From Halarchaeum nitratireducens (GTDB taxonomy: Archaea; Halobacteriota; Halobacteria; Halobacteriales; Halobacteriaceae), in contig NZ_BMOQ01000003.1 in NCBI RefSeq assembly GCF_014647155.1, positions 1 through 64,000 of the forward strand: a DNA stretch of 64,000 nt. Reading direction: 5' to 3'. The notes under the pieces were generated by a model. It did no database searches. It saw only the letters and a list, made by a program, of their open reading frames with translations, and was not told the origin of the DNA. The position numbers and the translations under genes are program-made. Shown here one piece after another: positions 189-3,550 of this stretch (within the stretch, counting starts at the first letter, position 1; each line of letters opens with the position of its first letter).

Positions 189-264
189 GCCAAGGTGGCA
201 GAGTCCGGCCTAACGCAGCGGCCTGCAGAGCCGCCCATCGCCGGTTCAAATCCGGCCCTTGGCT
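189..264 (+). tRNA. tRNA-Cys (anticodon GCA)
   Basis: A complete cloverleaf can be folded. The acceptor stem GCCAAGG (189-195) pairs perfectly with CCTTGGC (257-263). The anticodon arm is GCGGC-CTGCAGA-GCCGC with anticodon GCA. The T arm is GCCGG-TTCAAAT-CCGGC. The discriminator base is T264, as expected for tRNA-Cys, and no CCA is encoded. No intron is present. The D stem is weak (about two good pairs). A T-rich stretch (CCTTTT, about 270-275) follows and may terminate it. It converges with the KaiC-like gene. Confidence 0.95.
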
Positions 265-305: not shown

Positions 306-1760
306 TCACTCGCTCGGCTGTTCGGGCGTCCCACGGAGGATTCCGCGGAGCCCGGTGAGCGGGTCGCCGATCTTGATCCCGTGTTGCGTAATCTCGAACT
401 CGCGGAGGGTTCGCTGGAAGTCGCTGGTGCGTTTCTTGAGGACGCCGACGACTTTCCGTAGCTCGCCGTCCATCTCGATGTAGCGGAGGAAGACGATGTT
501 GTCGGCCAAGTAGCTGATTTCGCCTTCGGTGGCTTGGAAGTCACCGGTAACGGAGGCGATCTCCTCGATGAGGACGACGGTGACGCCCATGTTCTTGAGG
601 TACCGACAGAGCCGGTGGATCTCGGAGCGGAAGGTGTGCTCGTCGCCGCGGATGGAGAGTTCGTATCCGTTGATACCGTCGATCATCACGATCTGCGTGC
701 CAGCTTCTTCGACGTCTCGGCGGACGGTGTTGGCGAACTCCTGTGGTGTGTATTCGAGGGCTTCGATCTCCTCGATGGCGAGGGTTTCGCGCTCGATCAT
801 CCGATCGACGGGGATGTTGACGTCGGTGCAGCGTTCGAGAAACGTGCGTTCGTCCTCCTCGAAGAGGTAGATCGCGGAGCGTTCGCCGCGACCGGCGGCT
901 TCCTTCATGAACTGCGCGCCGGTCGTCGTCTTCCCGACGCCGGTCGGCCCGGAGATGATGGTGACGGTCCCGCGTTCGATTCCGCCGTGGAGTTGCTCGT
1001 CGAACTCCGGGATACCGGAGGGGATGGATTCGGACTCGAACGGCCGGTGATGATTCGGATCGAGTTCGGGGTAGACGCTGAGACCGCTATCGCGGATCCG
1101 GAGCGTGTGCGTGCCGCCGCGCGTTTTGGACCCGCGGAACTTGGGGACAGAGATCGTTCGCCCGGTTTCGCCGTTGTCGATCTCGATGACGCCGTCAGCC
1201 ATGAACTGGAAGTCCTCGTCGCTGTGATCGCTGGTCGCCTGCGTCGTGAAGACGAGAGTCGCGCCGACCTGTTCGAGGAAACGGGTGAGCGCGAGGATCT
1301 GCTTTCGGAGCTGGTACTCGTCGGGCGCGAGGTATCGTAACTGCGTCATCGGATCGATGACGACGCGGGTCGGCTCGACCTCACGGACGCGTTGGGTGAT
1401 GGTCTCCGTGAGCGAACGCTCCTCGACGGTCCCGGGATCGAAGACGTCGTACGTCCCGTCGTCGGTGAACGCGCTGGATTCGGGCGTGAGATCGAGGACG
1501 GTGATCCCCCCGATGTCGAGGCCGACGGCTGCGGCGTTGCGCCGGATGTCGGCCTCGGTCTCTTCGAGTGCGACGAGGAGGCAGTCTTCGCCCCGTTCGA
1601 CGCCGTCGATGAGGTACGCGAGCGCGAGGAGTGATTTCCCCGTCCCGGGCCGGCCGCGGAGCATGTAGCTTCGCCCGGGGATGAAACCGCCGTCGAGGAC
1701 CTCGTCGAGACCGGCTATCCCAGTGCTCGTGCGACCGTCACGGTCGTCGGTCGGTGACAC
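306..1760 (-). CDS. KaiC-like RecA-superfamily ATPase with two KaiC domains
   Basis: A 484-residue protein with two RecA/KaiC domains in tandem. Domain 1 has Walker A at residues 36-43 (GRPGTGKS) and the paired catalytic glutamates E66-E67. Domain 2 has Walker A at 271-278 (GPTGVGKT) and E301-E302. The C-terminal tail (GIKIGDPLTGLRGIL) resembles the segment after KaiC CII. At the place of the cyanobacterial KaiC Ser431/Thr432 pair it reads S416-Y417, so only one hydroxyl site of that pair is kept in kind. It lies 32 bases downstream of a LOV sensor-kinase-like gene on the same strand, so the two are probably one operon. Archaeal KaiC-like proteins are generally signalling ATPases rather than proven clocks; the role here is inferred from the neighbour. 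No KaiA or KaiB is in the window. Confidence 0.9.
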   Translation of the reverse strand: MSPTDDRDGRTSTGIAGLDEVLDGGFIPGRSYMLRGRPGTGKSLLALAYLIDGVERGEDCLLVALEETEADIRRNAAAVGLDIGGITVLDLTPESSAFTDDGTYDVFDPGTVEERSLTETITQRVREVEPTRVVIDPMTQLRYLAPDEYQLRKQILALTRFLEQVGATLVFTTQATSDHSDEDFQFMADGVIEIDNGETGRTISVPKFRGSKTRGGTHTLRIRDSGLSVYPELDPNHHRPFESESIPSGIPEFDEQLHGGIERGTVTIISGPTGVGKTTTGAQFMKEAAGRGERSAIYLFEEDERTFLERCTDVNIPVDRMIERETLAIEEIEALEYTPQEFANTVRRDVEEAGTQIVMIDGINGYELSIRGDEHTFRSEIHRLCRYLKNMGVTVVLIEEIASVTGDFQATEGEISYLADNIVFLRYIEMDGELRKVVGVLKKRTSDFQRTLREFEITQHGIKIGDPLTGLRGILRGTPEQPSE

Positions 1761-1792
1761 GTCCCTGTATGAGTGGACGGCTCGAATAGCTC

Positions 1793-3214
1793 TTACCCCG
1801 CTTCGGTCGCGTTCAGGTGGATCGTGACGGTGGGGTGGTCGTCGCTCGCGTCGACCTCGAATTCGCCGCTCGACTGTTCGACGGCCCAGCGGAGCAACCA
1901 GAGTTCGAGCCGATCGAGGTGGTCGAGTGGCGTTTCGGCGTCACGGGCGACGATCTCGACGCCGTGACGCCGTAGCGTGCCGCTCCGGTCGGTGGCGGTG
2001 AGACGCACTTCGCCGTCGCGCTCACGGACCGCGACGTCGAGATCGATCTTCGAGACGTCCTCGAAGAGGGAGAAGAACCCGCGGAGAGCGGCGCGTAACG
2101 ACGGATGTCCGGAGACGACCGCCCGGTCGGGGAGGTCGGTGACGACGTCGGCGCGCGGGACCTGTCTTCTGAGCGCGTCCGCCTCGTTCTCGACGATCTC
2201 GACGACGTCGAACGATTCCCCCTCGGCGTCGCCGTCGGCGACGAGGGTGTCGAACTCGTACATCTGGGTGCCGATCTGGAGGAGCTCGTCGGCGGCCCGA
2301 CGGATCCGCTTTGCGTCCTCGGACGTGCTTTCCCCCGCTTCGATCCGCTCTGCGTACCCCTTGATCACCGTCATCTTGTTCCTGAAGTTGTGTCGGAGGA
2401 CGCGATTGAGCACGGAGAGCCGGAGCTCGTGGCGCTTGCGCTGGGTGACGTCCTGCTGGAACCCGAGGTAGTGGGTGATATCGCCCTCGTCGTCGCGGAT
2501 GGGGACGATGTCGAGTCGGTTCCAGAACGGCGTTCCGTCCTTTCGGTAGTTGAGGATCTCGGCGGAGACCGGGGCGTTGCGCTTCATGGCCTCGCGGATG
2601 GTCTCGACGGTCGATTCGTCCGTGTTCCGCCCTTGGAGGAAGCGGCAGTTCCGCCCGATCACCTCGTCGGTGTCGTAGCCGGTGATCCGATGGAAGGCCT
2701 CGTTCGCGTAGATGATGGGCGTGTCGTCCGCCTCCGCGTCCGCGATCGTGATACCTTGGGAGGCGGCTTCGATCCCCCGTCGGAAGAGTCGGAGGCGCTG
2801 TTCGCGTTCGGCGAGGCGAAGCGAGGCGCGACGCGTGCGGAGGTGGTTCTCGATGCGGCGGTGCAGTTCGTCGCGTCCGACCGGGAGCGACACGACGTCG
2901 TCAACGCCCACCACGTCCCAGACGCTCTCGTCGTCGCGGGTCGTCAAGAGTACGTGCGGGAGATAGACGGGGTCGGCGTCGCGGCTGTGTTCGACGATGG
3001 ACTCCCGGTCCGATCGAAGCGCCCGATCGTCGAGGAGGCAGATGTCGTATTCGGCGGGGAGGCCGCTCGCGTCGCTCGCGGATTCGACGGCGTAGTCGGC
3101 GGCGTCTTCGAGCCAGTCGGCGAGTAGCTCGCGGTCCCGGCCGGGCGACATGAGGAGGATCACCCGTTCCGTGACGTCTGGCTCGTGAAACACCCCCGTC
3201 GCCGCGTCGTCCAT
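1793..3214 (-). CDS. LOV-domain sensor with receiver-like N-terminus and degenerate histidine-kinase core
   Basis: A 473-residue soluble protein. Residues 17-127 look like a receiver domain: D62 sits in CLLDD, but the usual late Lys-Pro is replaced by SLP, so it is probably a pseudo-receiver. Residues about 143-258 are a PAS domain of LOV type: the photoactive-cysteine motif GRNCRFLQG puts Cys190 where flavin adducts form, with FMN-contact candidates N222, N232 and Q253. HisKA-like helices carry RVLRHNFRNKM (H275). The following ATPase region lacks a recognisable N box and has DRSGTL where a DxGxG box is expected, so kinase activity is doubtful. A TATA-like stretch lies about 25-30 bases upstream of the ATG. 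The KaiC-like gene follows 32 bases downstream. Blue-light sensing is inferred from the motif. Confidence 0.88.
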   Translation of the reverse strand: MDDAATGVFHEPDVTERVILLMSPGRDRELLADWLEDAADYAVESASDASGLPAEYDICLLDDRALRSDRESIVEHSRDADPVYLPHVLLTTRDDESVWDVVGVDDVVSLPVGRDELHRRIENHLRTRRASLRLAEREQRLRLFRRGIEAASQGITIADAEADDTPIIYANEAFHRITGYDTDEVIGRNCRFLQGRNTDESTVETIREAMKRNAPVSAEILNYRKDGTPFWNRLDIVPIRDDEGDITHYLGFQQDVTQRKRHELRLSVLNRVLRHNFRNKMTVIKGYAERIEAGESTSEDAKRIRRAADELLQIGTQMYEFDTLVADGDAEGESFDVVEIVENEADALRRQVPRADVVTDLPDRAVVSGHPSLRAALRGFFSLFEDVSKIDLDVAVRERDGEVRLTATDRSGTLRRHGVEIVARDAETPLDHLDRLELWLLRWAVEQSSGEFEVDASDDHPTVTIHLNATEAG

Positions 3215-3274: not shown

Positions 3275-3550
3275 TCAGACCCCGCTGACGGTCTCCCGGT
3301 AAGCTCGGATCGACGCGAGCGCGTCGTCGACGGCCGCGGCGATATCGTCGTCGTCCGCGTCCGACGCGATGTCTTGAAGCGCGTGCGTGTGTCGTGCGAG
3401 GCGGCCGTGGTCCGGCCCCTGATCACGCGTCGCGAGCGACGCGAGCGCGTCGGCCTGCGTGGCCAGCCGTTCGCGCAGGTCGTCGTCGTCGCAGTCGTTC
3501 GCGGCGGCTTCGAGCGTCTCGCTCGCGTCTCGGAGTTCGTCGATCACCAT
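3275..3550 (-). CDS. Small acidic helical haloarchaeal protein, function unknown
   Basis: A 91-residue, strongly acidic, all-helical protein with no cysteines, signal peptide or membrane segment. The two halves look alike (alternating Asp-rich turns and Ala/Leu-rich helices, ending IRAYRET), which suggests a helical hairpin or bundle. It resembles short haloarchaea-only families labelled with DUF7553-type names, but I cannot confirm which. A TTTAGG box around 3572-3580 lies about 27 bases upstream of the ATG, which fits a leaderless mRNA. It is divergent from uvrB and upstream of the LOV sensor on the same strand, with a 60-base gap, so co-transcription is possible but not shown. Confidence 0.6.
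   Translation of the reverse strand: MVIDELRDASETLEAAANDCDDDDLRERLATQADALASLATRDQGPDHGRLARHTHALQDIASDADDDDIAAAVDDALASIRAYRETVSGV

Follow-up and report, generated by a model that had tools for sequence, protein, structure and literature searches.

In cyanobacteria, sensor kinases are partners of KaiC systems: SasA, the N-terminal domain of which is a KaiB-like thioredoxin fold and not a receiver, reads KaiC, and CikA combines a GAF domain and a histidine kinase with a C-terminal pseudo-receiver that binds KaiB. The pseudo-receivers of CikA and KaiA both touch clock proteins (PMC12632262, PMC6378743). Among archaea, KaiC-like ATPases have been proposed as signalling hubs that gather many and varied input and output domains (Makarova, Galperin and Koonin 2017, as relayed in PMC5847659), and in Haloferax volcanii the KaiC homologue cirC adjoins a PAS sensor gene annotated fixL, with light-dependent transcript levels for four cir genes, cirC included (Maniscalco 2014, PMC3941300). 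The pairing of KaiC with a PAS sensor is itself already noted there in passing. LOV histidine kinases, in which a canonical LOV domain precedes a histidine-kinase region, are known from bacteria. For archaea, LOV domains from Lake Diamante have been described without mention of KaiC, and an archaeal LOV domain was shown to photocycle in high salt (Valle 2025, PMC12202551). The authors of a 2025 review were aware of no published study of archaeal pseudo-receiver function (PMC12632262). Our searches of the open-access literature returned no paper joining a LOV domain, KaiC and haloarchaea, and the sole paper combining KaiC, LOV domain, archaea and histidine kinase was on bacterial clocks.

The stretch analysed here (the window), 64,000 nucleotides of Halarchaeum nitratireducens, carries on its minus strand a LOV gene (1793–3214; 473 aa) followed by a gene for a two-domain KaiC-like ATPase (306–1760; 484 aa, GTG start). 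Both gene positions were confirmed, and the 32 bp from the LOV stop codon to the KaiC GTG (1761–1792), partly conserved in a sister genome (G003), hold no intervening gene, in agreement with the spacing given by an earlier sequence-only reading of this DNA. The predicted LOV protein runs from an N-terminal pseudo-receiver (psREC) through a LOV domain and DHp-like helices to a degenerate CA (HATPase) domain. Like Haloferax cirC–fixL, the locus sets a two-domain-sized KaiC homologue (52.7 kDa in the case of cirC) beside a PAS-type sensor; unlike here, no psREC, LOV domain or pseudokinase is given for the Haloferax partner in the accessible text of Maniscalco 2014. From size and context, rather than from a sequence comparison, we infer that cirC belongs to the same KaiC family and that the window's ATPase is of the CirC type. 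The sister genome keeps the same order of a DUF7553 gene, the LOV gene and KaiC (91% identity for KaiC and 80% for the LOV protein). The DUF7553 gene (3275–3550, minus strand; PF24430, E = 3.3e-26) lies 60 bp upstream of the LOV gene and was seen only at these two loci, which rules it out as a member of a conserved module. On the other side, a tRNA-Cys gene (189–264, plus strand) converges on KaiC near the contig end, and the sister contig likewise ends about 245 bp beyond KaiC, as would be expected if an rRNA operon (5S–tRNA-Cys) had collapsed in both assemblies.

The ATPase contains two KaiC domains (PF06745 in two stretches, E = 2.3e-83) with their motifs intact on the minus strand, namely the Walker A motifs of CI (GRPGTGKS, G36–S43; 1632–1655) and CII (GPTGVGKT, G271–T278; 927–950) and the catalytic Glu pairs E66/E67 (1560–1565) and E301/E302 (855–860), bearing out the earlier description of a double-domain KaiC with both sites complete; its dN/dS against the sister genome is 0.11. 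The clock overtone of that description did not survive comparison with clock KaiC. The clock model TIGR02655 scored 163.8 against a cut-off of 546.25, KaiB exceeded its cut-off in none of 59 genomes, this one included, and the KaiA-binding C-terminal tail is absent, the protein ending about 4 residues past a match that stops near KaiC residue 490–496. At the phosphosite (Ser416/Tyr417, 510–515, minus strand, corresponding to KaiC S431/T432), Ser431 is kept, and Tyr occupies the Thr432 position throughout the 13 proteins aligned. A clock is not supported on these counts and, given that archaeal KaiC proteins can show kinase activity (PMC5520375), a KaiC switch is the sober reading. In RefSeq several of these two-domain proteins go under the gas-vesicle name gvpD, which is probably an annotation error.

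The LOV domain (residues 137–262; 2429–2806, minus strand) carries the motif GRNCRFLQG, with the adduct-forming position at Cys190 (codon 2645–2647, minus strand), and all of the flavin-contact residues N222, N232 and Q253. It matched many chains of solved LOV photoreceptors (best E = 2.9e-35, over residues 141–260), and the family model NF052652 (YtvA_fam) scored 157.8 bits over the LOV part, under its whole-protein cut-off. The LOV signature reported from the sequence is thus genuine, and the protein is likely to be a blue-light sensor, with flavin binding predicted from the retained residues. Its LOV domain is under purifying selection (dN/dS 0.24 against the sister genome).

That the protein is also a working kinase, as the label 'photosensor-kinase' in the sequence-only reading had implied, did not hold. 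Although a canonical LOV domain precedes a histidine-kinase region, as in LOV histidine kinases, here the CA domain is degenerate: Pfam gave a sub-threshold HisKA match (PF00512, E = 1.4e-4) over the DHp-like helices (2225–2428, minus strand) and no HATPase_c match in the LOV protein. The phospho-acceptor His275 (RHNFRN; 2390–2392, minus strand) is kept, whereas in the CA region (1796–2224, minus strand) the N-box Asn is absent and the G1 and G2 glycines are replaced. These lost ATP-binding motifs rule out an ordinary LOV histidine kinase, and by sequence the protein is a putative pseudokinase from which signalling by its own phosphorylation would not be expected. The loss is shared with the sister species and is therefore not a sequencing error. 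Nor is the gene a decaying pseudogene: dN/dS is about 0.24 over the LOV protein as a whole (psREC 0.28, DHp 0.19, CA-like part 0.23), and the value for the CA-like part indicates that the degenerate domain is constrained. Among 97 aligned KaiC-adjacent kinases, the phospho-acceptor His is present in all 97 and the N-box Asn in 92, and the N-box, G1 and G2 features are lost together in the window protein, its sister ortholog and the protein of locus L127.

A wider search for relatives of the LOV protein, across 392 genomes of the class, recovered eight proteins without ATP motifs (the window's and those of genomes G003, G216, G191, G143, G301, G066 and G208), forming one clade (support 99.7) in which the N-box Asn and the second G1 glycine are lost and a Glu replaces the G2 glycine ('LELW' type), with the LOV Cys and DHp His kept in all eight. 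Other LOV kinases in related genomes mostly have normal ATP motifs. No KaiC lies within about 8 kb of the pseudokinases of G066 and G208, and the one of G301 (locus L219) adjoins a KaiC match spanning only residues 10–141, possibly a KaiC remnant. The receptor can thus exist without an adjacent KaiC, and the two members without KaiC nearby weaken an exclusive link between LOV pseudokinases and KaiC. The clade appears to be undescribed in the literature searched.

The N-terminal region (residues ~11–135; 2810–3184, minus strand) is the psREC domain. Its profile (A2) matched many receiver domains (best PleD, E = 4.1e-13), and Pfam Response_reg matched none of 31 psREC family members. The window psREC retains the receiver Asp and Thr and has lost the acidic pair and the Lys, which sets it apart from a canonical receiver; among 97 members, the acidic pair is missing in 96, the Lys in 96, the Asp is kept in 93, and the full five-residue active site (acidic pair, Asp, Thr/Ser, Lys) occurs in one. 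Judged from these residues, psREC classifies as a pseudo-receiver under the definition of PMC12632262, and the family appears undescribed in the literature searched, with parts of known kinds. Like CikA, the protein thus joins a predicted pseudo-receiver to a sensor-kinase architecture; unlike CikA, it has no GAF domain, bears its psREC at the N terminus of a LOV/PAS protein and has no KaiB to bind. It also differs from SasA, with its KaiB-like thioredoxin-fold N terminus: among the 60 psREC-profile matches listed, none was a KaiB-like chain, and since receivers were matched instead, a KaiB/SasA-like N terminus is ruled out. Structure prediction on two sequences gave a mean pLDDT of 38.9, and one scan of genome contigs matched only two loci, both bacterial. 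At three loci checked (L073:3218-5014, L091:6542-8128 and L067:2757-4808), the psREC next to KaiC is joined to GAF–BAT–HTH_10 regulators in place of a kinase; such fusions, of the bacterio-opsin activator type, may give KaiC a direct link to transcription factors.

To place the pair in a wider context, we used profiles made from the window protein to survey gene neighbours at 120 loci, almost all of which surround KaiC (122 haloarchaeal KaiC genes). KaiC homologues were found in 25 of 40 relatives' genomes (E<=1e-60) and, class-wide, in 242 of 392 genomes (1e-90). A non-canonical psREC lies within 600 bp of at least 112 of the 122 KaiC genes by an automated count that misses some true cases, the window's own among them. 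Partners of the form psREC–(PAS)n–kinase stand directly downstream of KaiC (75), divergently upstream (20) or in tandem upstream (3), some tandem pairs having a 1-bp overlap of coding sequences (Haloarcula pelagica, with LOV, and Halarchaeum) and others being closely spaced (Halorussus, Haloferax larsenii). Within the 40 relatives, 41 psREC matches were found in 26 genomes, and 33 of the 41, by comparison of coordinates by hand, are within 3 kb of KaiC (~0.08 expected); six unlinked copies inspected in context had no KaiC nearby, and presence of psREC and of KaiC were associated across genomes (Fisher P = 1.1e-7). For the closest relatives of the LOV protein in the 392 genomes, 28 of 30 have KaiC sequence in the flank retrieved, one of these a fragment. 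With the same pair and order in the sister genome and the partnership recurring across relatives, chance adjacency is ruled out, the conservation on which the idea of a light-to-KaiC operon depended is confirmed, and KaiC is paired with a psREC–PAS/LOV protein almost throughout the haloarchaea surveyed.

Related arrangements were seen beyond the haloarchaea. Phormidesmis (L157:5827-8994) and an Acaryochloris plasmid (L180) carry a KaiC of the haloarchaeal type that shares 49–51% identity with that of the window and has a psREC-kinase beside it. Variovorax (L158:7388-9163), Agrobacterium (L181) and Sphingomonas (L184) carry a more distant KaiC (35–38% identical), immediately followed by a kinase or hybrid kinase. 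In Halorussus halophilus (L183:2827-3429), a canonical HalX response regulator, a candidate module output, lies upstream of KaiC and a psREC–PAS-kinase.

Sensors are interchangeable in the partner slot, and LOV is one of several found there. The Cys-LOV motif is present in 18 of 98 full psREC...kinase partners, and a Cys-LOV protein lies within 2.6 kb of 24 of the 122 KaiC genes. On the KaiC tree, LOV occupancy needs 11 changes, at least 9 of them by well-supported branches, and LOV occurs in the slot in several separate KaiC lineages. About six of the 47 LOV motifs in 40 genomes are found no more than 3 kb from KaiC, where 0.09 would be expected, a comparison among related loci in which the statistics are only a guide. 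Because 4 of the 22 PAS_9 places in the window's own genome are LOV, the 18/98 share may be mere sampling of PAS types, and we do not claim that the slot favours LOV above other kinds of PAS domain. Eight KaiC-adjacent LOV-like partners (loci L107, L111, L116, L117, L121, L122, L123 and L126) carry Pro where the adduct Cys would stand but retain every flavin contact, and their domains fall in a single group of the LOV tree. A haloarchaeal Cys-less LOV-like domain with a redox-active flavin is known (PMC4682037), and these Pro variants are possible redox sensors.

Taken together, the locus is best read as one version of a signalling module conserved in haloarchaea, in which a KaiC-like ATPase is paired with a partner that starts with psREC, continues with exchangeable PAS or LOV sensors and closes with an effector that can likewise be exchanged, namely a histidine kinase, a BAT-type HTH regulator or, in this genome, a pseudokinase. 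As psREC is the constant part while sensors and effectors vary, it is the part that would dock on KaiC. We estimate at roughly 0.5 the probability that the sensor, in this genome a blue-light pseudokinase, docks through psREC and acts on KaiC by direct contact, the contact being proposed because the partner's own CA domain lacks ATP-binding residues. Under blue light, Cys190 of the LOV domain would form an adduct with flavin, the effect would travel through the helical DHp dimer and psREC to KaiC, and the ATPase or autophosphorylation activity of KaiC would be altered, with effects on a presumed downstream target. The light-to-KaiC relay suggested by the sequence-only reading is in this way retained as a coupling, supported by conserved adjacency, near-universal pairing and LOV in several KaiC lineages, and loses its kinase and clock parts. 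More tentative is the fuller proposition that a kinase-independent blue-light receptor acts on the KaiC ring via a dedicated psREC, and that psREC is a general adaptor connecting haloarchaeal KaiC proteins on one side with sensors of light, redox and other cues and on the other with kinase or DNA-binding outputs.

Traffic could also run the other way, with KaiC upstream and controlling its partner, much as cyanobacterial KaiC is read by SasA, and with LOV only tuning that output. The intact kinase motifs of most partners (N-box Asn in 92/97) and the output-like BAT-HTH_10 DNA-binding regions that end some others would fit KaiC acting on its partner, and in other species such loci speak for signals that run both ways or from KaiC to the partner; for the window, whose partner has no ATP motifs yet is constrained, phosphotransfer output from its own ATP is improbable, and we regard this arrangement as rather unlikely here. 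Retention of His275 in all eight clade members despite the loss of ATP motifs, in a genome with many other PAS proteins, would suit a pseudokinase that pairs with another histidine kinase, or a DHp phosphorylated on His275 by another kinase, with KaiC a further member of the complex; as gene position singles out no second kinase and the conserved neighbour is KaiC, we give this somewhat less credence. Shared mobility or operon convenience, with no direct coupling, would accord with the many copies on haloarchaeal plasmids and the clustering of signalling genes in these genomes, but the partnership persists while gene order flips among tandem downstream, divergent and upstream placements, and psREC is nearly confined to KaiC neighbourhoods, making simple co-location very improbable. 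A light input to a KaiC-based circadian or diurnal timer would draw on KaiC superfamily membership and on the light-dependent cir transcripts of Haloferax volcanii (PMC3941300); set against the lack of any KaiB over cut-off in the 59 genomes, the missing KaiA-binding tail, the Tyr at Thr432 and the low TIGR02655 score, it has the slightest chance of these readings.

The locus offers a compact case for studying KaiC input: the stimulus of the sensor, blue light, is known, the receptor itself is expected to lack kinase activity that could complicate an assay, and KaiC is adjacent. Docking of psREC on KaiC, if real, would account for well over 100 haloarchaeal gene pairs and a few cyanobacterial ones through one adaptor, and it would provide a ready handle for the control of KaiC by light. 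In a partnership that recurs across the haloarchaea, light may thus act on KaiC-based signalling directly, and not via a kinase relay.
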